Positions 3,925-43,458 of a stretch of DNA of 64,000 bases are shown here, in pieces. The number at the start of each line of letters is the position of its first letter. The first letter of the stretch is position 1. A program made the translations under genes and the position numbers. The notes beneath the pieces are model-generated. The model searched no databases, was not told where the DNA came from, and saw nothing but the letters and a program-made list of their open reading frames with translations. Source of the DNA: Gammaproteobacteria bacterium (lineage in GTDB: Bacteria > Pseudomonadota > Gammaproteobacteria > UBA6429 > Thiohalophilaceae); contig JAGLTQ010000100.1 in the NCBI GenBank assembly GCA_023135195.1, positions 1 through 64,000 of the forward strand. Direction: 5' to 3'.

Positions 3925-4009
3925 AATAAATACTCCTTATATTATAGCGAACTAGTATTTTATGACCTATTATAATAATAGGGGTATTTTCCATACTTGC
4001 AATAATAAA

Positions 4010-4380
4010 AATTCACGTTCTAAGACCGTGGTTTTGCTCTCACCCTATAAGGGTGTATAAAATCCAAAACCCATCATCCTCTGTAGGTGAGTTCAAGGAG
4101 CGCTGTAGAACCGCTATGCGTTTTACCTCAGAACTGCAAACTGTGCAGTCCATCAGGTACTACTTCGCGTTGCTTAGGTCGCATCAGCACTTCTTCGCTA
4201 TGCTCAGTCTCGCGTGACGGAACTAACAAAAGATGCAAAAAAGACAACAAATGATGGATCCGTCACGGTGTGACTTGATCCATCCTACAAAATAAATCTG
4301 CACAGATAGCATCATTTTTTATTTGCAGGCAAGAGCCGCGAACCTGCTCCACGCCCTAAGGACGTGGTTTTATTTTTTAA
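4010..4380 (+). repeat. Repeat copy B, complete
   Basis: This non-coding element of about 370 bases fills most of the 525-base space between amrB and amrS. The left end is an imperfect hairpin (CACGTTCTAAGACCGTG, 4014-4030) and the right end is the hairpin at 4349-4367 followed by a T tract. Several internal dyads lie between, for example the GTCACGGTGTGAC-type dyad near 4262. It aligns almost throughout with copy C in the same orientation, and its right part with copy A. Subterminal hairpins without inverted terminal repeats recall non-autonomous IS200/IS605-type elements, but no transposase gene is present to confirm this. Confidence 0.85.
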
Positions 4381-4449
4381 TAAAATATTGAAATAGTGTT
4401 CTTCTGCCATTATGTAGTTAATATACGTAATATTAAATTAGGTGCTGTG

Positions 4450-7472: not shown

Positions 7473-7611
7473 ATATCCTCGCACTATCATATTTTAGTGT
7501 AAATAATAAGTAGACTTAATAACACCCTGGATGAGGACGAGTATAAGAAAACCAGCTTCCCCCCCTAAAATAATTATACCCTAACCTTTCTTTACATCAT
7601 CTTTTAAGTAA

Positions 7612-8025
7612 AAAACCACGTTCTAAGAACATGGTTTTGATCTCACCCTATAAGGTGTATAAAACCGCTCATCCTCTGTAGGTGAGTTCAAGGAGCACTG
7701 TAGAACCGCTGCGCGTTTCCCCAAGAACTCCAAAGGAGTTCATTAGGGATGACCCAACTACACTTTGTTTGTTCTGGCCTTACCTCAGGACTGCAAACTG
7801 TGCAGTCCATCAGGTACTACTTCGCGATGCTTAGGTCGCATCAGTACTTCTTCTCTGCGCTCAGGTTGCTAGTGACGGAACGAACAAAAAGGCTAAAAAT
7901 GATTGAGCCGTCACGTTGTGACTTGATCCATCCTACAAATTAAACCTGTACTGATAACATAATATCTTATTTACAGGCAATAGCCGTGAACCCGCTCCAC
8001 GCCCTAAGGACGTGATTTTATTTTT
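7612..8025 (+). repeat. Repeat copy C, complete
   Basis: This copy of about 410 bases has the same orientation as copies A and B. Its left hairpin is at 7614-7636 (CCACGTTCTAAGAACATGG core) and its right hairpin at 7997-8015, followed by a T tract. It carries about 50 bases absent from copy B near 7720-7780. A short open frame at 7749-7943 lies inside it but is made of repeat sequence, with no sign of being a gene. With flanking sequence it accounts for the 600-base gap between the lipoprotein gene and the TPR/beta-propeller gene. Confidence 0.87.
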
Positions 8026-8095
8026 TAATAAAGCCTTTCGACTACAAATTGTTTTTCTTCATGCATTAATATTTTAATTTAATTTATAACTAATT

Positions 8096-12966: not shown

Positions 12967-13557
12967 TTATTCATCAAGAGATGCTATTCTTTTATCTAAT
13001 AATGAAATGTTTTCTAATTTCCCGGCATTTCTCTTATTAATATCCACATCTAGATGATATGTATGATTTTTTATAAATTTTAGTTGAATATTAAGCCAGT
13101 CAAACTCATCAACTTCATTTTTAAAGCTTATAACCTCAGCCATCAGATCATTTCCCCTTACAACAAAATCATCTCTATGCAAAGAATCCAGATCAGAATC
13201 ACATATTATTTTTTCAAGCAAGGTAGAAGGTTTTTGAGGAATTTGAGTAGAAATAATTAATTTTGTAATTATTTCTATCTGTTCAGGATTGTAATCATAT
13301 TGAGGCAAAATTTCTTCGGCCATTTTTGCGCCAATACTTTCATTATTTTCATACTGCTGAAGATATCCTAAATCATGAAATAAAACAGCTGTTTTTAAGA
13401 TTGTTAAATTTCCCTGGTTAATATTTACCTTGCTGGCAAAAGTTATTGCTACAGGTAAAACATCACCCATCGTATGCCAGGCATTATGATATGTAAGCTT
13501 TGAATCAAGACCTTGAAGGCATTTCTCAACGTATGTTTTTACTTTAGAATATTGCAT
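12967..13557 (-). CDS. HD-domain phosphohydrolase
   Basis: This 196-residue protein carries the HD superfamily metal motifs: YHNAWHT (H24, H28), the FHDLGY doublet (H61-D62), and a downstream DSDLDSL segment supplying the distal Asp. HD proteins hydrolyse phosphoesters, including cyclic nucleotides and (p)ppGpp. Its start is 7 bases after the cyclase gene ends, on the same strand. The simplest inference is that it degrades or processes the nucleotide made by that cyclase, acting as a phosphodiesterase partner. No membrane segment is present, so it should be cytoplasmic. Confidence 0.8.
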   Translation of the reverse strand: MQYSKVKTYVEKCLQGLDSKLTYHNAWHTMGDVLPVAITFASKVNINQGNLTILKTAVLFHDLGYLQQYENNESIGAKMAEEILPQYDYNPEQIEIITKLIISTQIPQKPSTLLEKIICDSDLDSLHRDDFVVRGNDLMAEVISFKNEVDEFDWLNIQLKFIKNHTYHLDVDINKRNAGKLENISLLDKRIASLDE

Positions 13558-13563
13558 TAATGC

Positions 13564-15876
13564 TCATTTTTTATACATATGATATGCAGGTATTATTCCA
13601 TGCCCCTTAGGCAATACAACCTGACCAGCGTATGCAAAATTGAAATCACTAAGTTTTTCAACATTAGCCATTGCGGTAAATGTTTCACTTGCATATATAT
13701 ATCCAGGAGGTGTTATCGGCTCCATGCGTGCCGCACGATTAACGTAATCACCACATAGTTCCAGATTTTTAGTAACGGGTTCAATGTAAGAATAAACGGG
13801 GCCGGCATCAAGAGAAATCCGTATTGTTAAATCTTCTGGCAAGCCATATTCCTGCCATTGTGTAGCAACAATAATATTTTTTATCTCATTCGCGCATTCA
13901 GCAGCAATATTGAGTGAATTAAAAACGATAAAAAGTCCATCCCCTTGAGTACGTTTAATTAAAATACCTTCATTATATTTTTCAAACACCTCACTTATAT
14001 ATTTTAAAAAAACAGTAGAAAACGTTACTAACTGCTTCTCATTAAGTTTGCTATACCCTTTTACATCGGCAAATAAAAGAGGGAGAAAATTATAATAACC
14101 AACATCAGTACCGTAACTGGATAATTTGCATTCTATTAAAGATGGCAGAAACTTATTTTCATGAAGCGTAATTTCTCGGACACCATTAACCGGATCAATA
14201 ACAGTAATGGATGGATTTTCCCTTGACCATAAATCAATCACAGAAGATGTTCCACCAATGTTGTTATTAGTAACTCCATTCCATATGGATAAATATTCTA
14301 CTTCACTATTTATTACCTTTGCCCTGGCAACAGCAATACCTAAAACAAAGCGATTAGTAAAATCATAAGCAGGCTCATTAGTCACATCATTATATTGCGA
14401 CAAAATGACAACCCGACTTGCTTTATTTAATAAAACATCAAATCGATCACCCCAATTACCTTCTAGCACAGTATTAACGCTATGTTTTTTAAATCTTTCA
14501 ATGTCATGAGGAAGAATAATATTAATTTCCCCACCTTTACTAACAACCTCTTCAAGGAATAATATATCCGATCCACATGCTGCAGATGAATAAGCTATGC
14601 AATCCTCGTATTTACTTAATTGATTCTTAATTTCATTTCTAACAAAATTTTCTCTATTAGCAGGAAACCTGGCTACCTTTACACCAGGAACATCTATCAT
14701 ATGGCCTGAAAAAACGATTACCCTCGGTTTTTTAAAGAGCTCATCAAACATATCAAACTCAATATTTTTGAAGCTTAGTATTTTTTCTACTTGCTTATGC
14801 ATAGAGTTTTTTCCACGCATGTCTTTGCCAACTTTCACAATGGCTGACTGGTAAAATGATTTCGCAGACTCAATATCGCCTAACAATAATGCTGCCTCTC
14901 CCAACGTTGCATACACCCAATACATAACATCAATAGAATTACGTTCACTTTCATCTATAATCTGGTTGCAAATGGTTGTAACCTGGTTTGCTATTTTTAT
15001 GCTTTGTTCAGCTTCCCCTTGTAACAAGGCAATAGTAGCGGCATTAATACCATTATAATAAGCATTATTTTTATTTTTATTTTTTAATGATGTTTCAAAA
15101 GCAGTGAAATAACATTCAAATGATTTTTTTAAATATTCTTTTTTCTCTTTACCATTAACACCTTCTGAGAGTGCCATTTCTTTATATGTACGACCTAATA
15201 AACCCAATGTTGCACTATCTACTTCTTTAGAAATGGCATATAAATTATTTAATATTATTGAGGCCTCTTTAACTGCACCTGTTTCTGCCAATGCTAACGC
15301 CTGCTGCTGGTTTATATGGATATATAACCTTTGATTAACATCAGTAAGATTTACAGGATCAAGAAAACACTCTAAACCTTCTGAAAAAACATCATAGGCA
15401 AGAAGTGGTTCAGATGACTTCAAAAAACATAATCCGAGTTGGTAATATATATTTGGCTCAGACTGCCAACTCGTATAGTTATGTTCTCGCCAGAGAGAAA
15501 TAAGCTCTGGTAACAATAAGCTGCAATCCAGAATTGAGTTAAGCTGGTGGTCTACAACTAATTTTTCATGCTCAGACAAGATAACAGTATTAGGGGCTGT
15601 GATTGTATAGCCAAGCTTAAGAGTCAGCTTTAGCGTTTCTAATACACTATTACGATCATATTTTTTGTCATTTTCAGAGAGCTCATCATAAGGAACCAGG
15701 CAAGGATGCTGTTTATTAACATCATCTCTTCTCCCCCCATAAACCCATCCATTATCAAGCCGCTCTTGCGACCAGACTTCATGAATATTTCTGGAAAGTT
15801 GTTCTTGTAAATCAATTAATGATTTTTCAAGCTCAATGCCAGATGTATCAACGGATTTAGGAATATATTTTTCCAT
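13564..15876 (-). CDS. RyR-TPR-class III nucleotidyl cyclase
   Basis: The order in this 770-residue protein is as follows. A RyR domain (PF02026 type, about residues 30-90) has HEVWSQERLDNGW, KQHPCLVPYDEL and KKYDR. A TPR-like helical region spans about 120-370. A Rossmann-like segment (about 385-540) has GSDILFLEEV and recalls SLOG/TIR-type nucleotide-binding folds, though weakly. The C-terminal class III cyclase domain carries metal aspartates D604 (FADVKGY) and D646 (QGDGLF), and the transition-state Asn and Arg in VNRAARM. The base-selecting positions appear to be Lys (IKRTQ) and Glu (LELCGD) instead of the usual Lys/Asp of adenylate cyclases, so the product may be cAMP or another cyclic nucleotide. 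It is co-transcribed with the HD gene. Confidence 0.85.
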   Translation of the reverse strand: MEKYIPKSVDTSGIELEKSLIDLQEQLSRNIHEVWSQERLDNGWVYGGRRDDVNKQHPCLVPYDELSENDKKYDRNSVLETLKLTLKLGYTITAPNTVILSEHEKLVVDHQLNSILDCSLLLPELISLWREHNYTSWQSEPNIYYQLGLCFLKSSEPLLAYDVFSEGLECFLDPVNLTDVNQRLYIHINQQQALALAETGAVKEASIILNNLYAISKEVDSATLGLLGRTYKEMALSEGVNGKEKKEYLKKSFECYFTAFETSLKNKNKNNAYYNGINAATIALLQGEAEQSIKIANQVTTICNQIIDESERNSIDVMYWVYATLGEAALLLGDIESAKSFYQSAIVKVGKDMRGKNSMHKQVEKILSFKNIEFDMFDELFKKPRVIVFSGHMIDVPGVKVARFPANRENFVRNEIKNQLSKYEDCIAYSSAACGSDILFLEEVVSKGGEINIILPHDIERFKKHSVNTVLEGNWGDRFDVLLNKASRVVILSQYNDVTNEPAYDFTNRFVLGIAVARAKVINSEVEYLSIWNGVTNNNIGGTSSVIDLWSRENPSITVIDPVNGVREITLHENKFLPSLIECKLSSYGTDVGYYNFLPLLFADVKGYSKLNEKQLVTFSTVFLKYISEVFEKYNEGILIKRTQGDGLFIVFNSLNIAAECANEIKNIIVATQWQEYGLPEDLTIRISLDAGPVYSYIEPVTKNLELCGDYVNRAARMEPITPPGYIYASETFTAMANVEKLSDFNFAYAGQVVLPKGHGIIPAYHMYKK

Positions 15877-16101: not shown

Positions 16102-16560
16102 ATGTTTAACATAATGAATTCAGCTTCTAAAACAATATTGATACTTATTCTTGGCTTTCACACTCAGCATGCTAATGCATCAGGCCAACGATCCGCTACG
16201 ATTTCTCTTGATTCTGTAAAAACATATAACACATTAATGCTAGACAAAAAAACCTTAACTGAAAAGTATTTAAACTATGCAGGAACAGTAAATAATCATA
16301 CTCATATATTAATGGTGAAGAAGACCTCTTATTCTGAAGATTCAAATGGAAATATAGGAATGCCATGGAATGATGTTTATACTTATAAAATCGCTGTTGA
16401 TAAAATGACTATTGTTAACGGATGGGATTTAACCAAATTACTCAAGCAAAGACCGATTGAGATTAGCCCAGCTTTTTGTCCAATTCTGTATTTAACTCCA
16501 AACAAGAAAAAATACGTTATTTCAAACGAGAAAGGTATTAAATCTAACTGTTTAGATTAG
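16102..16560 (+). CDS. Exported protein, paralogue 1 (SGQR family)
   Basis: This 152-residue protein has a signal peptide ending near ANA-SGQR. It is a clear paralogue of the product at 39226-39687. The two share the mature N-terminus SGQR-S/T-A, the central LMVKKTS/LMVTKTS motif, and MTIVNGWDLT, which is also nearly identical in DNA. Two cysteines near the C-terminus (PAFCP and the terminal SNC) are conserved in the pair and may form a disulfide. The function is unknown. Both copies precede a tiny helical-protein gene and a TIR operon. The start could be the second ATG at 16114. Confidence 0.75.
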   Translation: MFNIMNSASKTILILILGFHTQHANASGQRSATISLDSVKTYNTLMLDKKTLTEKYLNYAGTVNNHTHILMVKKTSYSEDSNGNIGMPWNDVYTYKIAVDKMTIVNGWDLTKLLKQRPIEISPAFCPILYLTPNKKKYVISNEKGIKSNCLD

Positions 16561-16568
16561 ATTATTAT

Positions 16569-16733
16569 TTAACCAATCAAGTCTTCAATCAAATTATACT
16601 TCCTTAGAATTTTCACCGCCTGAATTTTCTTTCCCGCAGCCACATATTTATTAAATGCTTCTATATCATCAGATGGCGCAACCTTTAATAAATCATAGGT
16701 ATATTCATCCATTGTTTTAATTAATCTTTTCAT
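16569..16733 (-). CDS. 54-residue helical protein, paralogue 1
   Basis: This short gene encodes about 54 residues and is homologous to the frame at 41712-41867. The two share a KTMDEY N-terminal motif and an IQAVKILRKYNLIE C-terminal motif, with variable residues between. That is strong evidence of a real conserved gene, despite its size. The C-terminal motif faintly recalls the helix of ribosomal L7/L12 C-terminal domains. It is convergent with the exported-protein gene and divergent from the TIR-WD40 gene at 16925, the same layout as at the second site. A role as regulator or partner of the TIR operon is possible but unproven. Confidence 0.75.
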   Translation of the reverse strand: MKRLIKTMDEYTYDLLKVAPSDDIEAFNKYVAAGKKIQAVKILRKYNLIEDLIG

Positions 16734-16924
16734 TTACCTTCTAGCCAATTGAAATTTTATAATAAATTACTGATAATTTATTTGTTTATCACTCTTAACC
16801 TTATATGACTAAAAGCTAGCTAATACCGAGCTTATTCTACATTAATCTTTGCCAAAGCAATCTTATTTTGGGAAGATTAAATATGCAATATAAAATATTT
16901 AAATAGTAATAATTTGGTGTATTA

Positions 16925-19900
16925 ATGAGTCAACAACTAAAATATCACGCATTCATATCATATCGTCACGCAGATAATAAGGAGCAAGGTCGCCAATGGG
17001 CTACATGGCTGCATCAGGCTATTGAAACCTACGAAGTACCCAAAGATCTTATTGGTAAGAAAAATGGCTTAGGCGATATTATACCTGCACGAATTTACCC
17101 CATTTTTCGTGATGAAGAAGAATTACCTACACATGCTGATTTAGGACAGTCCATCGTAAAGGCACTTGATTCTACTCGTTTATTGATTATACTTTGCTCA
17201 CCCAATTCCGTCGCTTCAACCTATGTTGCTGATGAAATTGATTACTTTAAACGCCAAGGTGGAGCTTCTCGTATTATTGCTGCCATGATCGCAGGTGAAC
17301 CAAATGCTAGTTGGGACAAAGGCAAACAAGCTAGTGGTTTTAAAGTAGAAGATGAGTGCTTTCCCACCCCTCTTCAATATGAATATGATAATCATGGTAA
17401 CCGTACTGAAAACCATGCAGAACCTATTGCTGCTGATTTTAGAATCAATAACAATGGCCAAACCGAGCAAGGCTGGACATCACCCGAAGCTTACCGCCAA
17501 CATCTAAAGAACACTACAAAGCTTAACAACGAACAAATCCAAAAGAAAATAACTCAATATGATCAGCAGCAACATTTAATGCTACTGAAAATCATTGCAG
17601 GTATTTTGGGTGTAGCACTAGGAGAGCTGACACGACGAGATAAAGAATATCAGTTAGCTCAAGAACGTTTAAAAGCAAAAAAACTGCGCCGCTGGTTAAG
17701 TGCAGTAGCGATGTTATCTATTGTTGCTATTGGTGCCGGTGCTATTGCTTTAATGAAACAAAAAGAAGCTAAGATTGAACGGGATAAAGCGTTAAACAGC
17801 CAAAGTAACTTATTAATGGGGCTGGCTAAACAAGAAAGTGATAGAGGCCATTATGATACAGCATTACTATTGGGCTTAAATGCAATGCCAGGAATTTATG
17901 GTGGTGATCGCCCCATGCTGCCTATTTCTCATGAGTTACGTCGGGCTGTTGCAGGCAATAGAAAGTTGGTTGAATTCAGACATAAAGAGGATGTTAGCTA
18001 TGCCACCTTTAGCCCGGATAAAAAAATACTTGCCACAGTTTCAGAAGATGGTACCGCCATACTCTGGTCCGTTACATCTGGAAAAAAATTACAAATACTC
18101 CATCATAAAAAGGGCGTTAGACATATAACATTCAGTCCCGATGGTAAAACAGTAGTGACAGCATCATCTGATAGAACAGCAGCACTCTGGTCTGTTGCTA
18201 CGGGAGAAAAACTTCAAACTTTACAGCACAGGGTTGCCGTAGAACACGCAATATTCAGCCCTCATGGTTCAATAGTCGTTACAGTTTCATGGGATCAAAC
18301 CGTTGCTATTTGGCTAGTTGCCAGTGGTAAAAAGCTAATATCGCTCGATTTTGATTATGGCGTCAGACAAGTTACGTTTAATCCAAATGGTAAAATACTA
18401 TCAACCGTATCTAAAGATAAGGTAGTGCTATGGTCTATGAAAGATGGTCAGAAGCTGCACACGTTAAAGCATAAAAAAAATATTCATCATGCCTCATTCA
18501 GTTCAGATGGAAATTTTATCCTTACTACCTCAAGAGATAAGACAGCTGTAATCTGGTTAGTGAAAACCGGAAAAAAAATCAAAACATTTAAACATACTAA
18601 TGGGGTTAAATACGGAACATTTAGTTCAGACGGAAAAACCATCCTAACAGCATCTCACGATAATACTGCTGTTCTTTGGTCAACTGCCAGCGGGAAGAAA
18701 TTGCACACATTAAAACATAAAGCATCTGTGTTACATGCATCATTTAGTCCTGATGGAAAAACATTCGTTACAACATCTGTCGATAACACTGCTGTTCTAT
18801 GGTCAGTTAGTAATGGAAATAAATTACTAACACTGCAACACAAAGATAATGTCAATAATGCAATATTTAGTGGAAACGGACAAACTCTTGTTACAACATC
18901 TAATGATAAAACGGCTGCTCTCTGGAACATATCAAACAATGGAAAACCGTTAATTCTTCAACATAAAAACCAGGTCTATCACGCAGAATTTAGTTCAGAT
19001 GGAGAAACTGTACTCACTAGCCCATGGAATAAATCGGCAGCAATCTGGTCAACATCAACAGGTAAGAAGCTTGTAACATTAAAACATAAAGATATAATCA
19101 AACACGCAACTTTTAGCCCAAATGGAAAAACCGTTGCAACGGCATCGTCAGATAATACTGCAATAGTATGGTCGACAATAAATGCTGAAAAAATATTTAC
19201 AATGCAACATAAGCGTGATGTCGACCACGTAACATTTATAAATAATAAAACACTGCTTACATCCTCATGGGATAAAAGTGACGTCTTTTGGTCATTAACT
19301 ACCGGAAAGAAATTTTCTACATACAAACATAATAGTACAGTGGGAGCGCATGCAACACTTAGCCCTGATAAAAAGACTCTGTTTACACTTTTTGATAGCA
19401 AAGACAGATTTGGAACTAACTATGAAACAGGCTCACTTTGGTCTATTCAAACAGGCAAGAAATCATTCTCTTTAAAACACCGTTCAGCAATAAAACATGC
19501 TACGTTTAGTCCAGACTCATTAACGATACTGACAACTTCATGGGATAATACAGCGGTACTATGGTCAACATCAAGCGGAGAAAAACTTCATACATTCCAT
19601 CACAATGATGATGTCATACATGCTACATTTAGCCCTAATGGGCAGATATTAGTAACAGCATCAGAAGATAACACCGCTGTGATTTGGTTAGTAAAAACAG
19701 GTGAAAAAATACTTACACTACGGCATAAAGATGATGTCAACTATGTATCTTTTGATAAAGAGAGTAAGAAGCTACTAACGGCATCTGATGACAATACAGC
19801 TGTACTTTGGATAGTATCTACTGGAGAAAAAGTACAAACTTTTCAGCACAAGGATTTGGTAAAACAAGCAAAATTCAGTCCAGATGGAAAAACAGTACTG

Positions 19901-20086
19901 ACTGCATCAACCGACGACACAGCGGTTCTTTGGCCACTATATCCATATAACATTAAGGCAACAGCAATAAAAAGCCTACCAGCTAATCGAACCTGCTTAA
20001 CTCCAGAAGAACGTGAAAAATATTTCTTAAGTGAATTAACGAAAAAAGAATGGATAGCGCGTGGTTGCGCTCATTATGTAAAATAA
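16925..20086 (+). CDS. TIR-TM-WD40 protein
   Basis: In this 1,053-residue protein the N-terminal TIR domain (about 1-150) has HAFISYRHAD, the FRDEEELP loop, LLIILCSPNS and the putative catalytic Glu at E104 in VADEI, as in NAD-cleaving TIRs. A basic coiled region and one hydrophobic segment (about residues 258-276, SAVAMLSIVAIGAGAIAL) follow. From residue 353 come 16 WD40 repeats of about 41 residues, with consensus HATFSPDGKT and TAVLWS. The WD array is probably the sensor or scaffold and the TIR the effector. Its gene is divergent from the 54-residue gene and stands alone on this strand. Confidence 0.9.
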   Translation: MSQQLKYHAFISYRHADNKEQGRQWATWLHQAIETYEVPKDLIGKKNGLGDIIPARIYPIFRDEEELPTHADLGQSIVKALDSTRLLIILCSPNSVASTYVADEIDYFKRQGGASRIIAAMIAGEPNASWDKGKQASGFKVEDECFPTPLQYEYDNHGNRTENHAEPIAADFRINNNGQTEQGWTSPEAYRQHLKNTTKLNNEQIQKKITQYDQQQHLMLLKIIAGILGVALGELTRRDKEYQLAQERLKAKKLRRWLSAVAMLSIVAIGAGAIALMKQKEAKIERDKALNSQSNLLMGLAKQESDRGHYDTALLLGLNAMPGIYGGDRPMLPISHELRRAVAGNRKLVEFRHKEDVSYATFSPDKKILATVSEDGTAILWSVTSGKKLQILHHKKGVRHITFSPDGKTVVTASSDRTAALWSVATGEKLQTLQHRVAVEHAIFSPHGSIVVTVSWDQTVAIWLVASGKKLISLDFDYGVRQVTFNPNGKILSTVSKDKVVLWSMKDGQKLHTLKHKKNIHHASFSSDGNFILTTSRDKTAVIWLVKTGKKIKTFKHTNGVKYGTFSSDGKTILTASHDNTAVLWSTASGKKLHTLKHKASVLHASFSPDGKTFVTTSVDNTAVLWSVSNGNKLLTLQHKDNVNNAIFSGNGQTLVTTSNDKTAALWNISNNGKPLILQHKNQVYHAEFSSDGETVLTSPWNKSAAIWSTSTGKKLVTLKHKDIIKHATFSPNGKTVATASSDNTAIVWSTINAEKIFTMQHKRDVDHVTFINNKTLLTSSWDKSDVFWSLTTGKKFSTYKHNSTVGAHATLSPDKKTLFTLFDSKDRFGTNYETGSLWSIQTGKKSFSLKHRSAIKHATFSPDSLTILTTSWDNTAVLWSTSSGEKLHTFHHNDDVIHATFSPNGQILVTASEDNTAVIWLVKTGEKILTLRHKDDVNYVSFDKESKKLLTASDDNTAVLWIVSTGEKVQTFQHKDLVKQAKFSPDGKTVLTASTDDTAVLWPLYPYNIKATAIKSLPANRTCLTPEEREKYFLSELTKKEWIARGCAHYVK
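17981..19953 (+). repeat. Sixteen tandem WD40-coding repeats
   Basis: Sixteen in-frame units of about 123 bases, each starting with a His-Lys type codon pair, make up the C-terminal two-thirds of the TIR-WD40 gene. The units are much more alike than typical blades. Unit 12 carries a short insert and unit 11 is slightly shortened. Sixteen units would build two full propellers. The similarity suggests recent expansion, with a high chance of unit gain or loss. Confidence 0.85.
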
Positions 20087-20110: not shown

Positions 20111-22381
20111 TTATAATTTAAGCACATCATCAAAAAACAGAATAAATAATGAAAACGTAAGAACAAATAAAGATACACCAAGCACAGTTGTAATTTTAAC
20201 GAGCCAACGCCAAACTATATGTCCTTGATAAACATTTGAGGCAGCCCAAATAGATCTTGATACAACAAAAACATATGCCGCAAACCAGAAAATAACTAAT
20301 GGTGAATGAGATAAAAAATAAAGGAAAAAATTAATAAAACTTCCAAATACACCAAACAGCCAAAATGTTATGGGCAAACCATAACCACCATCAGTTAATT
20401 TTAAATAACTAAATCCTTTGGTTTTTTTAAATAAATTTACAGGCAAGTGCAGAATATAATTAACAAAACCACCTGTTTTTTTGATTAACCCACTACCCTT
20501 AGTTCGTTCGTGATTTTTAGTATTGAACACATTAAATACTGACTTTATTTTTGAAGAACCATTGACAATGGATTTTTTAAAATCATATTTATTCTTTAAA
20601 TTATTAAATAACGATTCATGTTGCCTGGTTGTTTGCTCGAGATTATCTAAATCTACAAGCAACTCTTCTACACTCTGATAACTTATTTCTTGAGTTGTTT
20701 GAAGACACTTATTAATAACTTTAATTAAACTTTCACTACAACCATTAAAATTTGTCTCTGAATCTACATATTTACGGAAATCTCCTGAAGCATCTCCAGT
20801 AATAAGACTCTTCATAAGAATGCCTATTGAACAAATGTCCGTACGAAGATGCAACTCTGAACCAAGGTAAATAGGCCCCCAAATTTGATAAGGATCAAAT
20901 TCTGGATCTCTTTCCGCCATTTCATTTAAAAACCCCTGATTCTTTTGATAAAAACTCTCTTCCGCTTTACCTAGGTAATTTATTAAAAATAGACGCTCAT
21001 CATGCTTACGTATATAGATATTTCTAAGGTTAATATGCCCATGAAACAGACCTTTAGAATAAACCTCAGAAAGTCCTGTCAATAATTGCTGAACTAACCC
21101 TATTATTTGATTTTCAGAGAAGGGTTTATTATTACGTTCAATAATAAGTTTTTCCAGGATCATTCCATCTGAATAATCCATAACAAGATAGGCCGTTCCA
21201 TTATCAGTAAAAAAATCACGATTACTAATAATAGCAGGTGATTTTTTAAACTGTGTTAACCGTTTGGCACCGAATAGATACTCATCAAGTTCAGCCTTAC
21301 TTATTTCTGATCGTTGACTTCGAGTACTTGGATAAAACTCCTCTATTACCACCTCTTCATCAAGTTGCGTGTGTTTTGCTTTATACACAAAATAAAGCCG
21401 ATCATTCCTTAATGTTTCTGTAATAACATATTGATTTAAAACAGTACCATCAGGCAAAGATTCTCTATAAAACACCTCTTCCGTACTCGTTTCATCAGTA
21501 AGTGCTGCAACTAATTCATCAACACTTTGAAAGCGCTCTTCTTCATTGATCAATAAACATTTATCAATCGCTTGTAGAAAACCAACACTATACTCACCCG
21601 CGCCAACTTCTACAGCAGGAATTAAAGGATCAGGTTTTCGCTTAATCATAGCAGTTAAACGTTTATTCACATTTACTGGATTTTGCCCACTAATGACTCG
21701 CCATATAACTGCGCCAAGTGCATATATATCAGTCCAGGGACCTAAACTCCCTTCATCACTGACTTGTTCCATTGGAACATAACCCACGGTATATGGCGAC
21801 ATCGATTTACTGTGTTTTGAATAGTTTTGTTTAGCTGCACCAAAATCAATAAGAAGAGGTTGCTCATCACCACGCCGGATAAAAATATTAGCTGGCTTAA
21901 TATCGCGATGTAATACCCCTTTTTCGTGCACGAACCTTAAACCATCAAGAAGAGACAGCATCATATTTAAAAGTTGTTTTTCACTTAAAGGTTCATTATT
22001 ACGTGCTCTTAGTAATTCACTAAGCGATAAACCCTCTTCAAAGTCCATTACCAAATAAGCCGTACCATTCTCTGTAAAAAAATCACGGCAGCTGACTATA
22101 TTAGGTAGTTTTTTAAACTGAATGAGTTGCTTGGCTTCATCTAAAAACCGAGCTAAACCTTCATCATAATCATCTTGTTCTTGATTACTTAACGGGTGAA
22201 TAGTCATACCTTCACGTGTGGCTATTTCAGAGGGTAGATACTCTTTAATAACAACAGCTTCATCTAAGTGAGTGTGTTTGGCTTTATAAACAATACCAAA
22301 ACCACCATAAGCAATCATGGATTCAATTTTATATTGTTGTAATACTGTGCCATTAGTTAGGGCATTTTTATGAGAAGTCAT
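20111..22381 (-). CDS. Ser/Thr kinase-pseudokinase membrane protein
   Basis: In this 756-residue protein the first Hanks-type kinase (about 15-300) is intact: GGFGIVYKA loop, K46, HRD at 158-160 with IKPANIF, and DFG at 179-181. A second kinase-like domain (about 316-590) keeps the fold but has Glu347 for the Lys, HGH at 447-449 for HRD and NYL at 468-470 for DFG, so it should be inactive. Three hydrophobic segments end the protein. The first domain is closely similar to that at 27314. It is the last gene of the sigma-small-GAF-subtilase operon. The pseudokinase probably regulates the active half. Confidence 0.92.
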   Translation of the reverse strand: MTSHKNALTNGTVLQQYKIESMIAYGGFGIVYKAKHTHLDEAVVIKEYLPSEIATREGMTIHPLSNQEQDDYDEGLARFLDEAKQLIQFKKLPNIVSCRDFFTENGTAYLVMDFEEGLSLSELLRARNNEPLSEKQLLNMMLSLLDGLRFVHEKGVLHRDIKPANIFIRRGDEQPLLIDFGAAKQNYSKHSKSMSPYTVGYVPMEQVSDEGSLGPWTDIYALGAVIWRVISGQNPVNVNKRLTAMIKRKPDPLIPAVEVGAGEYSVGFLQAIDKCLLINEEERFQSVDELVAALTDETSTEEVFYRESLPDGTVLNQYVITETLRNDRLYFVYKAKHTQLDEEVVIEEFYPSTRSQRSEISKAELDEYLFGAKRLTQFKKSPAIISNRDFFTDNGTAYLVMDYSDGMILEKLIIERNNKPFSENQIIGLVQQLLTGLSEVYSKGLFHGHINLRNIYIRKHDERLFLINYLGKAEESFYQKNQGFLNEMAERDPEFDPYQIWGPIYLGSELHLRTDICSIGILMKSLITGDASGDFRKYVDSETNFNGCSESLIKVINKCLQTTQEISYQSVEELLVDLDNLEQTTRQHESLFNNLKNKYDFKKSIVNGSSKIKSVFNVFNTKNHERTKGSGLIKKTGGFVNYILHLPVNLFKKTKGFSYLKLTDGGYGLPITFWLFGVFGSFINFFLYFLSHSPLVIFWFAAYVFVVSRSIWAASNVYQGHIVWRWLVKITTVLGVSLFVLTFSLFILFFDDVLKL

Positions 22382-23186: not shown

Positions 23187-23990
23187 TTATGACCATTTAT
23201 TACGATCACTCATATCGGCAAGTAATTCTGTTAATTTTTTACAAAGAGGTAGAAGATTGTCTTGTTGCTTAGCAATTTTCATCACGTCCTGCATAATGGA
23301 CATGAATTGTTTATCTTCTTCATTAAAATCGATACCTTCAAGCTCCTCTATTTCACTTGAGCTACCAGAAACCAAGTTTTTTAATACTTCTTCGCGTTGT
23401 CGCTGACGCACAACCATTGCAGCAAGATCAGCAAAATGTTTATATGCTTGCATATCTTTAGGCGTAAAGTGATCACCGTTTTGCTTATTCACGGCACTGA
23501 TAGTGCCTACTCCATCATCATTTATAAAAAGTGGTGCAACCAGAACATTTTTGAATTGTATATCTGCTGAGCCTTCAATATCGGTATTAATAGGTGTTGA
23601 TGATTGTATTTCACCTGTAGCAAAGGCTAAGCCATGTTGAGAACCTTCAAGAGGAACATGATAACCAATTACCCCTTCTGCTCCATCACCGATAACGGCT
23701 TTAAAAACAAGCGTGTTTGTTTCGGGATCTAATAGTGTGAGGCCGGCACCACTCGCATTTACAACATACATTGCACTTTGTAAGATCATGGTGAGCAAGG
23801 CATCATCTTGAATATCTGAACCCAGGGCCAAATAACCTAATAATGCTTTTATATTTGTGTTGTTTTCAACGTCGATTAACGATGAAGAGGAACTCTCTGA
23901 ATTTTTCAACTCGCCACTGAGAGAATTAAGTGTTTCTAAGCTATTTTCAATTTGTTTTTTAAGGGTATCAATTTGTTCCTGTAAACTCAT
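23187..23990 (-). CDS. GAF-domain protein
   Basis: This 267-residue protein has an N-terminal coiled coil (about residues 1-35) and a Ser-rich linker, then a GAF domain (about 60-200) with the VNASGAGLTLLD and VPLEGSQHGLAFATG segments. A C-terminal helical tail of about 60 residues follows. GAF domains bind small ligands, including cyclic nucleotides, or act as dimerisation sensors. No output domain is fused, so it probably acts through partners in its operon. GGA stands seven bases before the ATG. It is cytoplasmic by composition. A link to the cyclase in the island is attractive but untested. Confidence 0.85.
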   Translation of the reverse strand: MSLQEQIDTLKKQIENSLETLNSLSGELKNSESSSSSLIDVENNTNIKALLGYLALGSDIQDDALLTMILQSAMYVVNASGAGLTLLDPETNTLVFKAVIGDGAEGVIGYHVPLEGSQHGLAFATGEIQSSTPINTDIEGSADIQFKNVLVAPLFINDDGVGTISAVNKQNGDHFTPKDMQAYKHFADLAAMVVRQRQREEVLKNLVSGSSSEIEELEGIDFNEEDKQFMSIMQDVMKIAKQQDNLLPLCKKLTELLADMSDRNKWS

Positions 23991-24047: not shown

Positions 24048-24290
24048 TTACAGTAGATTTTTATTTTTTAATTTTTCAATTAACTTATCTTTAGAAGCTT
24101 CAACATCAAAGTCTTCTGACTGCACTTGTTCTTTTTTATCTATCGATATTAATGCTTCGCGTACAAGCTCAGCTTCTTTAAGAATTTTAAGCTGTTCTTT
24201 ATCTAAAAACTGTCCAGACACATCACTATCGTCACGACCAGTGAGGACATTTAGCCACATATCATCAATTGAATTTTTGTCATCAACCAT
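24048..24290 (-). CDS. Small acidic protein, possible sigma-factor partner
   Basis: This 80-residue acidic, mainly helical protein has no signal or membrane segment. It starts 12 bases after the sigma-factor gene ends, on the same strand. In many bacteria a gene right after an ECF sigma factor encodes its anti-sigma factor, but this sequence shows no zinc-binding or transmembrane anti-sigma signature. It is as likely to be an uncharacterised adaptor. Its position beside a cytoplasmic protease gene makes regulated degradation a testable idea. Confidence 0.6.
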   Translation of the reverse strand: MVDDKNSIDDMWLNVLTGRDDSDVSGQFLDKEQLKILKEAELVREALISIDKKEQVQSEDFDVEASKDKLIEKLKNKNLL

Positions 24291-24302
24291 AATTATTTGC
24301 CA

Positions 24303-24893
24303 TTAAGCGAGTTGTAACTCTCTACATTCTTCTAAACAAGGTTTAATCTTTTTGCGACTTTGTGAAATATATTCACAGGTCGCATGTTTTGTTGCCTTGC
24401 CCAGAAAACCGGATAATTGTTCGTTATCCCATTCATAGCGTACTGCCAATCTGAGCGCATAACCTCGTTGCTCATCTTCGTCTGTCATTTTTTGCAAGCA
24501 ACGTTCAACACAATTCGAAAGATCCTCTTTATCAGAAGAATCCGTATAATGAAGCTGATTATCCAGCCCCTCGTCACTCACAGAAGCGTTAATAATCTTA
24601 GCTTCTTTACTGCGAAAATAACCTGCCCTGTTGGTAAAGACCACACGCCACATCCAGGGGCCTAACATCCTTACATTGTTTAAATTATCTTTATTTTCTA
24701 ATAACTTAATAAATACATCATGAGCCAAATCTTCAGAGGTTTCCGCATCTAAACCTTTACGGCGATAGTGAGACTGAATATCTTTAGCATATCGAGAATA
24801 TATATTAGCAATGGCTAATTCTAAGCTGGCACCGCCCTGCTGTATAAGCTTCTGATCTTCAATATCTTGTTGTGCTTTTAGTTCAAAATCCAT
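24303..24893 (-). CDS. ECF-like RNA polymerase sigma factor
   Basis: This protein of about 196 residues has a sigma-70 region 2 (about 27-95), with YSRYAKDIQSHYRRKG, DLAHDVFIKL and a WMWRVVFTNRAGYFR segment for core and -10 binding. The region 4-like C-terminal half is less typical (about 130-185) and would bind the -35 element. It is the first gene of the operon ending in the kinase-pseudokinase, so it may control its own operon and the second kinase operon. The start could be the TTG at 24899 or the ATG at 24893. No membrane anti-sigma factor is nearby. Confidence 0.82.
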   Translation of the reverse strand: MDFELKAQQDIEDQKLIQQGGASLELAIANIYSRYAKDIQSHYRRKGLDAETSEDLAHDVFIKLLENKDNLNNVRMLGPWMWRVVFTNRAGYFRSKEAKIINASVSDEGLDNQLHYTDSSDKEDLSNCVERCLQKMTDEDEQRGYALRLAVRYEWDNEQLSGFLGKATKHATCEYISQSRKKIKPCLEECRELQLA

Positions 24894-25108
24894 ATCCAAT
24901 TCTACTACTAAAATGATGTAATTGATTAGAATTTATCAGGCAGTTTCTAATTAATCAACAGTAATACAACCGGGCTAATAAATAAGCATTAGCTTATATT
25001 GCTGGATAACTTTTGAATAGAGATAGGTTATAAATTAACCAAATTTGAGTTGAATCCCTATGTAAATATCCACCTATCATTAATTACGGTGATTATATTC
25101 ATCCTAAA

Positions 25109-27313: not shown

Positions 27314-29698
27314 TTAGTTAATTTCCTGAACAAGGCGAAATCCAAACTTATATTTTTTATTAGTAGCTTTTTCTGGACGTCGATTAGCTACCCGTATTCC
27401 TTTATGATTAGATGTCCAACCACCCCCACGCACTATTCGTTTATTACAATTCCCAGTTAACCAAGCATTTCCATTTTTAGGAGCTCCTTTATAATTATCG
27501 TTATAGCAATCTTGAGTCCATTCCCACACATTGCCATGCATATCATAAAGGCCAAAGTCGTTGGAACGATAACTACCTACTATAGCTGTCCCATTCAACA
27601 CACCATCATTTTTGTAATAACATCCTGAAGATTTAGTTCCACTATATTGTGCTTTAGAACAGCTTACTGAATTACCCCAGCTATACTTACTACGGCTACC
27701 TGCACGGGCTGCATATTCCCACTCTGATTCTGTAGGTAAACGGAAGCGCGTCCCTGTTTGTTTACTAACCCATTTAGCAAAATTTCGAGCATCCTGCCAA
27801 GTTACATATATAACAGGTCGATTACCTCGACCAAAACTATTGTCTTTTAGCTTATTTTTACCTACAGCTCTTGCATATGCATCATACTGATTAAAGGTGA
27901 CTTCTTTGGACATCATTTTAAAAGCAGATAATTTGACGGAGTGAACAGGCTTTTCATCAGAGCTATACGTTGATCCCATACGAAAGCTACCTGATGGTAT
28001 ATTTACCATTTCCCCAACATACCCATGTGCAGCAGCAGCCTTTGCAGCCGCTTTAGCTGCAGCTTTTTCTTTAGCCGCCTTAATTTCTTTTAGTTTCGCT
28101 ATTCGCTTTTTTTCAGCTTCTGCAATAGCTTGTTTTTGTTTAGCCACCTCATCGGGCTCCATCCATTTCCCTCTATACTTTATTAAGTTTCCACCTTTTA
28201 AAGTGTAATCACCTTTTAAGGTTTGTTTCTTTTGAACATAAATATTCTCTTTTAAATTATAGAACTTATCTTTCTTTAGAGTTAAAACGTGTTTCCCAGC
28301 AGTTATATTTAATAATGTTGCCGGTGTCGTTTTTTGTGTATATTTATAATCGACATAAATTCGTGCTCCTTCAGGTGTACTAAACACACTGAAATTGCCT
28401 GTAGCAAGTTTAAGCTTGAATTTTTCTTTACTAATAACATTATCTTCTAATGTTATTGTTTTATTCATATCCTGATAATCAGCATGAGTGAGTTTGATTG
28501 TATGCTTTCCAGCCGGAAGATTACTCCCTACATAAGGCGTTTGACCAAGCAAATGCTCATCCAAATACAAATTAGCACCTCGTGGTTGACTATTTATATG
28601 TAGAACAGCTTTACCTTTGGCGAGTTCATTAGATACTTGAAAAGCAAAAATAGCACCAGCAAAAATAATAGCTAGTCCTGTAAAAACAGCCACTCTTTTA
28701 AGTAAAGGTTTTTTAGATTCAGTCACATGTGAATTGTGTGATTTTTTAGCATTAGGTTTTTTATTTTCTATAGCTGCATCAATTGGCGCTACTATCTCAA
28801 CATTATTAATTTCATGTAAAGCTGAAATTAATTCATTCACACTCTGATAACGGTCGCTATCATTTAATGCCGTACATTTATCAATAATGGTAAGGAGTTC
28901 TTCTGAGTAATTATTGTCAGCCACTTCTTTTGCAGAAACAAAAGGGTCAGGTTGCCCTTTGATAACAGCCGTAAGCCGTTTATTAACATCAACAGGATTC
29001 TGGCCGCTAATGATTCGCCACATCACAGCACCAATAGCATAGATATCAGTCCATGGTCCTAATTCACCATCATCACTGATTTGTTCCATGGGTGCATAAC
29101 CCACTGTAAACGGTGCCATGGATTTTGAGTGTTTTGAGAAGTTTTGTTTTGCTGCACCAAAATCAATTAACAGGGGTTGCTCATCTTCACGGCGAATAAA
29201 AATATTACCGGGTTTAATATCCCGATGCAAAACACCTTTGTCATGCACAAAAGCTAAACCATCTAACAAGGCTAGCATCATATTTAATAAATGCTCTTCA
29301 CTTAGAGGGTCGTTGTTTCGTGCTTTCATTAACTCACTGAGAGACAAACCTTCTTCAAAGTCCATAACCAGATACGCTGTACCATTAAGCGCAAAAAAAT
29401 CACGGCAACTAACAATATTTGGATGTTGTTTAAACTGAACGAGTTGTTTGGCTTCGGCTAAAAAACGATCAAGACCATCCTGGTAATCGTTTTCAACACT
29501 GCCACTTAACGGATGAACGGTTGTCCCTTCTCGTGTCGCAACTTCTGAAGGCAGATATTCTTTTATTACAACCACTTCATCTAAATGAGTATGTCGTGCC
29601 TTATATACAATACCGAAACCACCATGAGCAATAATGGATTCTATTTTATATTTATCTATTACTGTTCCATTTGCTAGGGCGTTTTTATGATCTGACAT
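27314..29698 (-). CDS. Ser/Thr kinase-TM-PEGA-FGE sulfatase-modifying-fold protein
   Basis: In this 794-residue protein the N-terminal Hanks kinase (about 15-300) is intact, with K46, HRD 158-160 and DFG 179-181. One transmembrane helix (about 335-357) follows, then two PEGA domains (about 365-500) with INSQPRGANLYLDE and FSTPEGARIYVD. A Lys/Ala-rich helix and a C-terminal FGE/SUMF1 domain (about 565-794) with GSFRMGS, RLPTESEWEYAAR and GNVWEWTQD complete it. The RGGGW segment lacks the paired cysteines of true formylglycine-generating enzymes, so it is probably a binding domain. The topology puts kinase inside and PEGA/FGE outside, as a receptor kinase. Confidence 0.92.
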   Translation of the reverse strand: MSDHKNALANGTVIDKYKIESIIAHGGFGIVYKARHTHLDEVVVIKEYLPSEVATREGTTVHPLSGSVENDYQDGLDRFLAEAKQLVQFKQHPNIVSCRDFFALNGTAYLVMDFEEGLSLSELMKARNNDPLSEEHLLNMMLALLDGLAFVHDKGVLHRDIKPGNIFIRREDEQPLLIDFGAAKQNFSKHSKSMAPFTVGYAPMEQISDDGELGPWTDIYAIGAVMWRIISGQNPVDVNKRLTAVIKGQPDPFVSAKEVADNNYSEELLTIIDKCTALNDSDRYQSVNELISALHEINNVEIVAPIDAAIENKKPNAKKSHNSHVTESKKPLLKRVAVFTGLAIIFAGAIFAFQVSNELAKGKAVLHINSQPRGANLYLDEHLLGQTPYVGSNLPAGKHTIKLTHADYQDMNKTITLEDNVISKEKFKLKLATGNFSVFSTPEGARIYVDYKYTQKTTPATLLNITAGKHVLTLKKDKFYNLKENIYVQKKQTLKGDYTLKGGNLIKYRGKWMEPDEVAKQKQAIAEAEKKRIAKLKEIKAAKEKAAAKAAAKAAAAHGYVGEMVNIPSGSFRMGSTYSSDEKPVHSVKLSAFKMMSKEVTFNQYDAYARAVGKNKLKDNSFGRGNRPVIYVTWQDARNFAKWVSKQTGTRFRLPTESEWEYAARAGSRSKYSWGNSVSCSKAQYSGTKSSGCYYKNDGVLNGTAIVGSYRSNDFGLYDMHGNVWEWTQDCYNDNYKGAPKNGNAWLTGNCNKRIVRGGGWTSNHKGIRVANRRPEKATNKKYKFGFRLVQEIN

Positions 29699-34811: not shown

Positions 34812-35062
34812 TAATCTAGCTCAAACCTACATTATTAAATTGATTTTATGCGCATATAAAATAATTAACTTTATAAATAAAACATCTATATCTTCTAATT
34901 TGGATATAAAGACGCCATAACGTTAAAAATATCAGGCGGATGAAAAAGTATCACTTTTGTTGTTAGATTAAAACATCTACTTAATTTTTATGGTAAATTC
35001 CTGAGAAATATAGATTGATTAACTCATTATTATTACTTTGTTTGATTAAATTGGGATTAAAA
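34812..35062. promoter_or_regulatory. Divergent promoter region of the two phospho-signalling transcripts
   Basis: This 250-base AT-rich space separates the first gene of the minus-strand FHA-to-kinase operon from the plus-strand PP2C gene. Both promoters must lie here or nearby. I do not see an unambiguous -35/-10 pair or operator, and the site for the ECF sigma factor of this island cannot be named by eye. Confidence 0.4.
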
Positions 35063-38847: not shown

Positions 38848-38860
38848 GCTCTCAGAGACA

Positions 38861-38904
38861 GAGTCAAATTATACGATGAACTATAATTTAATGTGATTTG
38901 ACTC
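38861..38904 (+). terminator. Possible terminator after the M4-FHA gene
   Basis: GAGTCAAAT (38861-38869) pairs perfectly with ATTTGACTC (38896-38904). The loop is AT-rich and itself partly self-complementary. It begins 14 bases past the stop codon. No T tract follows; instead a C9 run does, so Rho-independent termination is uncertain. Confidence 0.4.
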
Positions 38905-39225
38905 CCCCCCCCAGCTCAATTTACTAAGATGTTATACATTACAATTTATCAGGATATATTAAATATATCCAACATGAGCGCCGGTATTTAATGATCTATT
39001 AATAAATAAGCTTTTTACTTAAACCCAAGATAAAACCTTCAATATAATTATTTAATTTATCCATATTTTCCTGACATAATTTTATTTTTACACTCTTTAA
39101 CTCTAACATTTAATGATTTATGCGGTAAATTATATTCACTCACCCCATATTTACAATTATTACTTAAACATCAATAATTGGTTAAAAAATAAACACTATG
39201 CAGTTTGACAATAAAGACATCCAAT
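38905..39225. other. Intergenic gap with a perfect palindrome
   Basis: I see no gene in this stretch. It holds the C9 homopolymer (38904-38912) and a perfect dyad GGATATATTAAATATATCC (38952-38970; 8-base arms, 3-base centre) that could be an operator. The promoter for the exported-protein gene at 39226 must lie nearby. Confidence 0.4.
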
Positions 39226-39687
39226 ATGAAATTATTAAGTAAATCAATATTCGTTTTTCTTATTATTATATTTTCTCAATTAACTACTGCGTCTGGACAA
39301 CGAACAGCCGTCATTACAACAGATGCCTTAAATAAATATAAAGTTCTTAGGCTTAAAAATGATGAACCAGTTGGGAAGGTTTTACATTATATGGGCACAA
39401 TAAACAATAAAGTCCATTTACTCATGGTCACTAAAACTTCATCATCCAGAACTTCATCCGGTAAAATTGAAAGACCATGGAGTCACGTATTCAAATATAA
39501 AATATCTGTTGATGAAATGACTATTGTTAACGGATGGGATTTAACAGATAAAATAAAACAAGATAATTTTAGAATGAGGCCATCTTACTGCCCTCGATTA
39601 ATTATTTCATCAAATCAAAAAAAATACATACTAGCTAATAACAAAAAAATGAAATCAGCATGTATTACAATGAGAAGACGTTATTAA
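39226..39687 (+). CDS. Exported protein, paralogue 2 (SGQR family)
   Basis: This 153-residue protein has a signal peptide ending near TTA-SGQR. Its paralogue is the product at 16102: both keep SGQR, a LMV-K/T-KTS motif, a PWxxVxxYKI segment and MTIVNGWDLT, plus two C-terminal cysteines (SYCPR and SACI). The matching DNA over the MTIVNGWDLT codons suggests recent duplication or gene conversion. I chose the ATG at 39226; an upstream TTG at 39205 would lengthen the signal. The function is unknown. It precedes three membrane-protein genes and then the second 51-residue helical-protein gene. Confidence 0.75.
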   Translation: MKLLSKSIFVFLIIIFSQLTTASGQRTAVITTDALNKYKVLRLKNDEPVGKVLHYMGTINNKVHLLMVTKTSSSRTSSGKIERPWSHVFKYKISVDEMTIVNGWDLTDKIKQDNFRMRPSYCPRLIISSNQKKYILANNKKMKSACITMRRRY

Positions 39688-41867: not shown

Positions 41868-41976
41868 CATAATTCCTTTTTTATTTTGCTAAAAATCAAC
41901 CTGATTTACTGACATAATACTCATTAGTCACTCTTAGTATTTAGATGTAGCTAATTAACAAATGTCAGGAAAAAAT

Positions 41977-42927
41977 ATGGCAAAAGTAAGAATAAGCTCA
42001 AAAATATTACAACAATCAGATAACCTCCCCCCTAATTCTCTGGATTACCTGGAATTTGATTTTAAAGGGGTAACATTCCGTTGTTTTGGGATATTACATG
42101 GCATTACAGGTGGACTAAACCGTGATTATCGTGAATTCATAAAGCAATCAATTAAAGCTATAGATGGGGTTAAACTGGCTGAGAAAGGCATGAAACAACT
42201 CTATCGTAATTGTGGCATTGAAGCCGAATTAGAAGACTGGGCAGTTTTACGCCCAATTGATAGCTTTGTTATGGGGTTCCAATTACTCGCTGATCCTCGG
42301 TCTCTTTGGATGATTACAATAGATGCGCTACGAGAGAAGTTTCGCAAACATGATGCTTTTATAACAAACAAGAGAACAAACATTTCTGATCTTGGTGAAT
42401 CAAGCTATTTTCATTATCTGGATGAACAAGAACGTCGTGAGATTGCAGGCTTTTTACCCTCACAACAAGCGATTAGTAATGATCTCAAATCCATGACTCA
42501 TTGGTATAGCGCGATTATTCCGAAATCTCGTCATAAGAAAATCGATCATCCACAGTGGCGACGACTTTTATTATTAGAGCGTGTAATGCATATCCCCTGC
42601 CGTTCTATCCATATGCTGCATTACGCTCTCAGCTATGCACAAACGCATAGTCACCAACAGATTAATTTACTTATAGGAGAGACTCATAATACAGATATGC
42701 AATTTCTCGCAGAAAATATAAACATATTTAAAAGCGAACTAGATAGTAAGCAACTCAATGTTATACAAAAAATTATTGTAAAAGCGACAAATATGGGTAA
42801 GCGAAGAACAATATCAAAAAACATTATTTTTGGCCTGAAAAAAATAAATTACCTTGTATTTCTATTAATGGGTGCGGCTTCAGCATTAAGTTTATATTTC
42901 GTTATCTATGTAATTCTCAATAATTAA
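41977..42927 (+). CDS. TraB/TIKI-like protein with C-terminal membrane anchor
   Basis: This protein of about 316 residues carries two GxxH motifs, GILH (near residue 43 of the open frame) and GETH (near 239), the defining pair of the TraB/TIKI/Ere-like metallohydrolase group. A Glu in AEKG (near 74) is a plausible third ligand. One transmembrane helix (about 296-318) anchors the C-terminus. AGGA lies six bases before the ATG at 41977, while the ATG at 41962 has no such site. It is the first gene of an operon that continues to 50730. The match is based on motifs only, so the family call is provisional. Confidence 0.55.
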   Translation: MAKVRISSKILQQSDNLPPNSLDYLEFDFKGVTFRCFGILHGITGGLNRDYREFIKQSIKAIDGVKLAEKGMKQLYRNCGIEAELEDWAVLRPIDSFVMGFQLLADPRSLWMITIDALREKFRKHDAFITNKRTNISDLGESSYFHYLDEQERREIAGFLPSQQAISNDLKSMTHWYSAIIPKSRHKKIDHPQWRRLLLLERVMHIPCRSIHMLHYALSYAQTHSHQQINLLIGETHNTDMQFLAENINIFKSELDSKQLNVIQKIIVKATNMGKRRTISKNIIFGLKKINYLVFLLMGAASALSLYFVIYVILNN

Positions 42928-42930
42928 TAT

Positions 42931-43458
42931 ATGGAAAACATGAACGAATCTCAAATGAATGAACCTCCTATTTGTGAGACAAGAGAAAAATACCTTATTG
43001 GTCCTATAAGTTGGAAATTGTTCAACCAGATTAATTATTTACTTGCTAGTGATAAAGAAAAAGAAGATTTTGTTGATGTTATGCTACATCCAAAAGGTTA
43101 TTTATGTATCAGACGAGCAGTACAGGAAACGGTATTTGGATTTGAATTTCGCGTTCATATAGATGATATTCAGCTGCCTATTAAATTAATAGAGGCATCT
43201 ACTAAACAAAATATGAGCAGTATCGTCATTGCGGTAAAAGAGAATAAAAATGTCGTTCAAATAACACAATTTGTTCACGAAAAAAAGCCAGATACAGACT
43301 TAGGTTATTCAAGTGGTTCAAGTGATGGCATAGGTATTCAAATGAAAGATATTACAAAAGCAAAGGAAGTAAAAAATCTGCTAAACACTTTAATAAATAA
43401 GTTGGTGAATAATCCAACACTGGTATATGCACTATTACCCTTTTACTGGCAAGATTAA
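42931..43458 (+). CDS. Unknown protein in the TIR operon
   Basis: This 175-residue soluble protein has mixed strands and helices and no cysteine-rich, membrane or nucleotide-binding motif that I can see. It lies 3 bases after the TraB-like gene and 5 bases before the first TIR gene, so the three are one transcript. A Gly/Ser-rich loop (SSGSSDGIG) divides it into two parts. Its fixed position between the two neighbours suggests a dedicated partner. I do not recognise it. Confidence 0.7.
   Translation: MENMNESQMNEPPICETREKYLIGPISWKLFNQINYLLASDKEKEDFVDVMLHPKGYLCIRRAVQETVFGFEFRVHIDDIQLPIKLIEASTKQNMSSIVIAVKENKNVVQITQFVHEKKPDTDLGYSSGSSDGIGIQMKDITKAKEVKNLLNTLINKLVNNPTLVYALLPFYWQD

Follow-up and report, generated by a model that had tools for sequence, protein, structure and literature searches.

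Two tiny genes in the 64,000-nucleotide stretch of DNA analysed here (the window) encode proteins and evolve under purifying selection; their products, which we call copies A and B, are members of a very rare, undescribed protein family. The small gene appears to have been duplicated inside one seemingly species-specific signalling island, where each copy faces a TIR operon across a putative common bipartite element resembling a promoter or operator. We tentatively favour a role for the small proteins as trans-acting regulators that tune the island operons, a reading that is possible rather than probable. Under this reading, the small protein would tune transcription of the island operons by binding either DNA or RNA polymerase or a sigma factor; any such binding activity or effect on expression we only infer. 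The features discussed below are collected in Table 1.

Table 1. Genes and intergenic elements of the island, in window coordinates
Feature	Position	Strand	Basis
Putative secreted protein, paralogue of 39229–39687, convergent with copy A	16102–16560	+	Window ORF comparison
Small protein copy A, 54 aa	16569–16733	−	ORF, homology, dN/dS, AlphaFold2 model, placement test
Element A (probable), TTACTGA-N16-CACTC, between copy A and TIR gene	16767–16797	+	
TIR (N-terminal)–WD40 protein, 1053 aa, facing copy A	16925–20086	+	Pfam
Divergent ECF-sigma-like gene, candidate reader of the element	24303–24899	−	NCBIfam
Element D (tentative, weakest), upstream of PP2C gene (ATG about 35064)	34998–35025	+	Fails leave-one-out
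Element C (probable), upstream of 39229–39687, no small gene	39068–39095	+	
Putative secreted protein, paralogue of 16102–16560	39229–39687	+	Window ORF comparison
Small protein copy B, 51 aa	41712–41867	−	ORF, homology, placement test
Element B (probable), between copy B and TIR operon	41906–41936	+	
Operon B gene 1, 321 aa, facing copy B, without family match	41962–42927	+	Pfam
Operon B gene 2, 175 aa, nothing above curated cut-off	42931–43458	+	Pfam/NCBIfam
Operon B gene 3, TIR–WD40-like	43464–46508	+	Pfam, sequence comparison
Operon B gene 4, TIR–WD40-like	46512–49655	+	Pfam, sequence comparison

Copies A and B are identical at 33 of 51 residues (65%, E 5e-25) and pair only with each other when all window ORFs of at least 40 aa are compared. 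A whole-genome search found only these two copies in the 2.7 Mb genome, which is estimated to be 86% complete. Copy B has a possible alternative start one codon upstream, at 41870. The first-pass annotation had described two homologous genes here and had argued from their conserved ends and variable centre for a real protein, and our results agree on both counts. Twelve of the first 16 residues are identical, as are all 14 residues of the C-terminal stretch I37–E50, with a variable centre between these ends. When the 41 nucleotide changes between the copies were placed randomly, none of 20,000 placements retained the observed protein identity without a stop, and NG86 estimates gave a dN of 0.23 and a dS of 1.04. 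An independent pair of relatives in two other genomes was matched in constraint by 28 of 20,000 placements when scored by identity and by 2 of 20,000 when scored by BLOSUM. We conclude that both copies are real genes. Chance ORFs within a duplicated non-coding stretch would be short and lack a family match above curated cut-off, as these do, but that explanation is very improbable given the coding constraint in both pairs, the existence of relatives elsewhere in the class, in a different family (E ~1e-9), and the absence of an Rfam match to copy A.

The family has very few members. Clear relatives (E ~1e-9) occur in two other genomes among 369 genomes of the class, own genome included, and both belong to one genus: Sulfuriflexus (JAGLUW010000018.1) and a second genome of the same genus, whose proteins are 38–40% identical to copy A. 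Repeating the class search with four query sequences returned the same two genomes. The small protein is absent from all 39 other genomes of its own order and from the other two genomes of the relatives' order, and none of the further matches in a search of 398 genomes from the phylum was convincing. Neither viral contigs nor plasmids contained relatives, nor did phages, which were searched with one query sequence only. A short-peptide-pattern scan of 84,980 species genomes, a kind of scan that distant relatives escape, gave one locus, in Sulfuriflexus sp. (0 of 203 stretches with the two-sequence version and 1 of 68 with the second version). We judged four other matches to be due to chance: one within the order (E 0.0018, inside a 463-aa frame), a third match within the class (E 0.0077, inside a 204-aa frame), and two within the phylum (E 9.4e-4 in a 42-aa frame, with mainly the N-terminal half in common, and E 0.009 in a 497-aa frame). 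In the literature, we found no description of such a small protein beside TIR–WD40 genes.

Both copies had nothing above curated cut-off in Pfam and NCBIfam and nothing clearly significant in PHROGs, the models of established small DNA-binding regulators (HTH, RHH and the like) included. PADLOC gave two weak matches for copy A, KwaB (E 0.006) and SoFic (E 0.03), which we attribute to chance, as copy B shows neither. AlphaFold2 models led by copy A and by the Sulfuriflexus relative, both built from the same four sequences, each have three helices and a mean pLDDT of 84, and from these models we infer a three-helix bundle fold for this family of 47–54 residue proteins. All four sequences share M8, Y11, L15, A19, P20, Y30, I37, A39, K41, I42, L43 and Y46 (copy A numbering). 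The third helix is conserved and basic (I-x-A-[VI]-K-I-L-x-x-Y), and the two relatives keep both this motif and the A-P pair, like copy A. A fold search with the copy A model against the PDB gave 14 rows, none significant (all E > 6, best Z 3.2), and a PDB sequence search gave seven matches with a best E of 0.49. We also considered a likeness of the third helix to the "GKKIEAIK" stretches of ribosomal L7/L12-like proteins, which no match supports.

The first-pass annotation placed both small genes head to head with TIR operons, starting at 16925 and 41977. Both copies are indeed head to head with plus-strand operons containing TIR genes, and copy A lies 191 bp from the ORF starting at 16925. 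Across a gap of 94 bp, however, copy B faces an ORF that starts at 41962, of which 41977 is an in-frame internal ATG, and the 321-aa product of this ORF has no Pfam match and is not a TIR protein; the TIR genes are the third and fourth of the operon. The N-terminal TIR part of the 16925 protein is 35–41% identical to those of the two operon B TIR proteins. All three TIR_2 matches of the genome lie inside the island. Since relatives of the 16925 TIR protein are confined to the own genome within the order (1 of 40 genomes), the island looks species-specific. Viral contigs yielded no relative of the TIR part encoded at 16925, the order none of the 321-aa protein, and plasmids none of the 175-aa protein. 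In an alignment by eye, the TIR domain of 43464–46508 has a Q (AEQI) where the other two have an E (ADEI, DQEI), which we take to be the catalytic glutamate, so this domain may lack it.

This arrangement could reflect a dedicated TIR partner: the small protein would bind the TIR proteins as an adaptor, a chaperone or an inhibitor of the antitoxin kind, and would set the threshold at which they are activated. Both copies face TIR operons, the genome has its TIR_2 matches in this island only, and within the order TIR relatives and small protein are alike restricted to this genome (1 of 40 for each). The relatives elsewhere, unlike the window copies, have neighbours other than TIR genes. In Sulfuriflexus, the small gene has on one side a gene for a secreted SH3-like protein of 389 aa and on the other a gene for a small membrane protein, after which comes a NUDIX gene; in the second genome, it follows a DegQ-like protease gene and is convergent on a gene adjoining a methyltransferase gene (we assigned neighbour names at both loci by reading the sequences). 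Neither neighbourhood (about 15 and 20 kb, listed ORFs) contains a TIR gene, and the facing partner is not the same at the two loci. The two genomes have one TIR_2 match each, located away from the small gene, and one of the two proteins is 289 aa long with a C-terminal TIR, an architecture unlike that in the window.

In the reverse direction, relatives of the N-terminal part of the 16925 TIR protein were found in 12 plasmid records, and at the six loci that we examined a six-frame profile search found no small protein within 4–6 kb (one profile row, E 7.4, was at chance level). In addition, each small gene is divergent from its TIR operon rather than co-transcribed with it, and two small proteins that resemble each other would need to fit TIR parts sharing only 35–41% identity. 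Specifically for a type II antitoxin, the co-operonic layout is absent, with both small genes divergent, and so is linkage across genomes (0 of 2 carriers and 0 of 6 TIR loci, a small sample). An antitoxin, inhibitor or chaperone devoted to the TIR proteins is thus less likely, though with only two other carriers known this reading keeps some probability. Of the reading in the first-pass annotation, a real, duplicated and divergently transcribed protein is supported and the TIR-specific partnership is not, as homologues adjoin TIR genes in neither of the other genomes (n = 2), the pattern that it had named as telling against it. Its suggestions of an antitoxin-like partner or chaperone of the TIR systems are therefore unlikely, and its suggestion of a regulator fits the shared element described below but not as a regulator specific to TIR genes. 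The island pair resembles toxin–antitoxin pairs with an NAD-degrading toxin, such as NatR–NatT (PMC11535050), in having a small gene beside a predicted NAD-acting gene, and differs in that the window genes are not co-operonic and relatives occur without a TIR gene.

The two divergent intergenic regions share a block that reads TAAGAGTGA-N15-TCAGTAA from the small gene and TTACTGA-N15-TCACTC toward the TIR operons, with 22 of 31 positions in common. In an unweighted identity test, 4 of 200 shuffles reached this, a weak result; by a rarity-weighted score, it was matched by 1 of 300. These statistics suggest an element common to both regions. Allowing up to two mismatches, the block matches 66 further places in the genome, and two of these (39068 and 34998) lie upstream of plus-strand operons of the island, where ~0.05 would be expected (P ~0.001). 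The exact pattern TTMCTGA-N16-MACTC, which we refined post hoc on the four sites, occurs four times in 2.7 Mb, each time upstream of an island plus-strand operon; shuffles of the window gave a mean of 0.04 and never four. Looser matches to the pattern were not enriched (18 versus 16.25 expected), and with up to one mismatch there were 51 matches genome-wide versus 41 for the reversed pattern. In leave-one-out analysis, sites A and C ranked first and site B second among untrained positions, and site D was outranked by five unrelated positions. Judging from these sequence comparisons, sites A, B and C are probably real, and site D is tentative.

Of the island's five plus-strand transcription units, four are preceded by the element, the exception being 16102–16560. 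Two of the four sites (C and D) precede operons without a small gene, and at site C neither translation nor blastn detected a small-gene relic (38848–39060). Extracytoplasmic function (ECF) promoters have a spacer near 16 bp between two boxes, and the sites have a layout of this type, with two conserved boxes and a spacer of 16 in all four (under the post hoc pattern). The element is oriented as a promoter of the plus-strand operons would be, and it may have no link to the small protein.

We consider it nearly as likely as regulation that the small gene is an orphan passenger, that is, a rare and possibly mobile gene with an unrelated cellular role that arrived in the island a single time and was duplicated together with its flanking block. 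Its position facing the TIR operons would then be an accident of that duplication. The neighbourhoods differ between the two Sulfuriflexus-genus genomes, the order lacks the gene elsewhere, and the facing gene is not the same for A and B. Both copies lie in one island and, as block duplication predicts, paralogous putative secreted genes lie to the left of both. These secreted proteins, 16102–16560 and 39229–39687, are 45% identical, have signal peptides predicted by eye, and lack a family match above curated cut-off. On sequence grounds, the two loci look like an old block duplication. Against a passenger, both copies are under purifying selection and a conserved element lies between each copy and its operon. 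Between the loci, moreover, the small protein is the closest pair (65% identity versus 45% for the secreted pair and 35–41% for the TIR N-terminal parts), which argues for a continuing role. No inverted repeats of the kind that end mobile elements surround the small gene in either relative; those matched near the small genes in the window are AT-rich and unshared, and we discounted them.

We prefer the regulator reading because the small genes are divergently placed and under selection, because the element between each of them and its operon is conserved, and because relatives also occur away from TIR genes. Small regulators whose genes diverge from the operon under their control are a general kind. 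The window genes resemble these in that a tiny gene and an operon are arranged head to head, with a conserved element in the gap; they differ in that their proteins have no recognised DNA-binding domain, and regulation here is a candidate role. The presence of an ECF-sigma-like gene inside the island (24303–24899; NCBIfam SigZ E 5e-13 and generic ECF 6e-7, both below curated cut-offs) also speaks for regulation. Against it stand the fold search without a significant match, the lack of enrichment of loose element matches, the element at two operons without a small gene, the leave-one-out failure of site D, the weak unweighted test of the A/B block, and the lack of a common partner among the relatives.

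Sigma genes commonly, but not universally, regulate themselves through their own site, and we found no element with two or fewer mismatches upstream of the sigma gene (24899). Downstream of it on the same strand follow 24048–24290, a 267-aa gene (23187–23990), a subtilase-like gene and a Ser/Thr kinase gene. A more ambitious form of the regulator reading, which we regard as improbable, is that the small proteins are the first recognised examples of a new class of micro-regulators that read, or are read through, the island-wide element and that, with the ECF-like sigma factor and Ser/Thr kinases, switch the TIR and phosphatase operons together. Hanks-type kinases activate ECF43 sigma factors (PMC13147305); we do not assign 24303–24899 to this group. 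If the regulator reading holds, a tiny protein missed by annotation would offer a handle on switching a TIR/kinase island as a unit. Otherwise, our analysis still puts on record an unnamed family of small proteins and a candidate promoter motif for the island as a whole.

The island combines TIR, Ser/Thr kinase, PP2C, vWA, FHA and subtilase-like genes. This mixture recalls the NTP-dependent conflict systems, whose parts include TIR, kinase, vWA and PP2C, and for which the sections of the published account considered here describe no such small protein (PMC7159879). Two Ser/Thr kinases on the minus strand (20111–22381 and 27314–29698) are 73% identical over 303 residues, and the latter carries PEGA and FGE-sulfatase domains. 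Also on the minus strand, 13564–15876 encodes a protein with RyR, TPR-S and nucleotide cyclase domains, with an HD-domain gene downstream (12967–13557). Finally, a pair of ~400-bp direct repeats (4006–4384 and 7609–8032), 77–93% identical in pieces, has ends that look like hairpins and is reminiscent of a non-autonomous mobile element.
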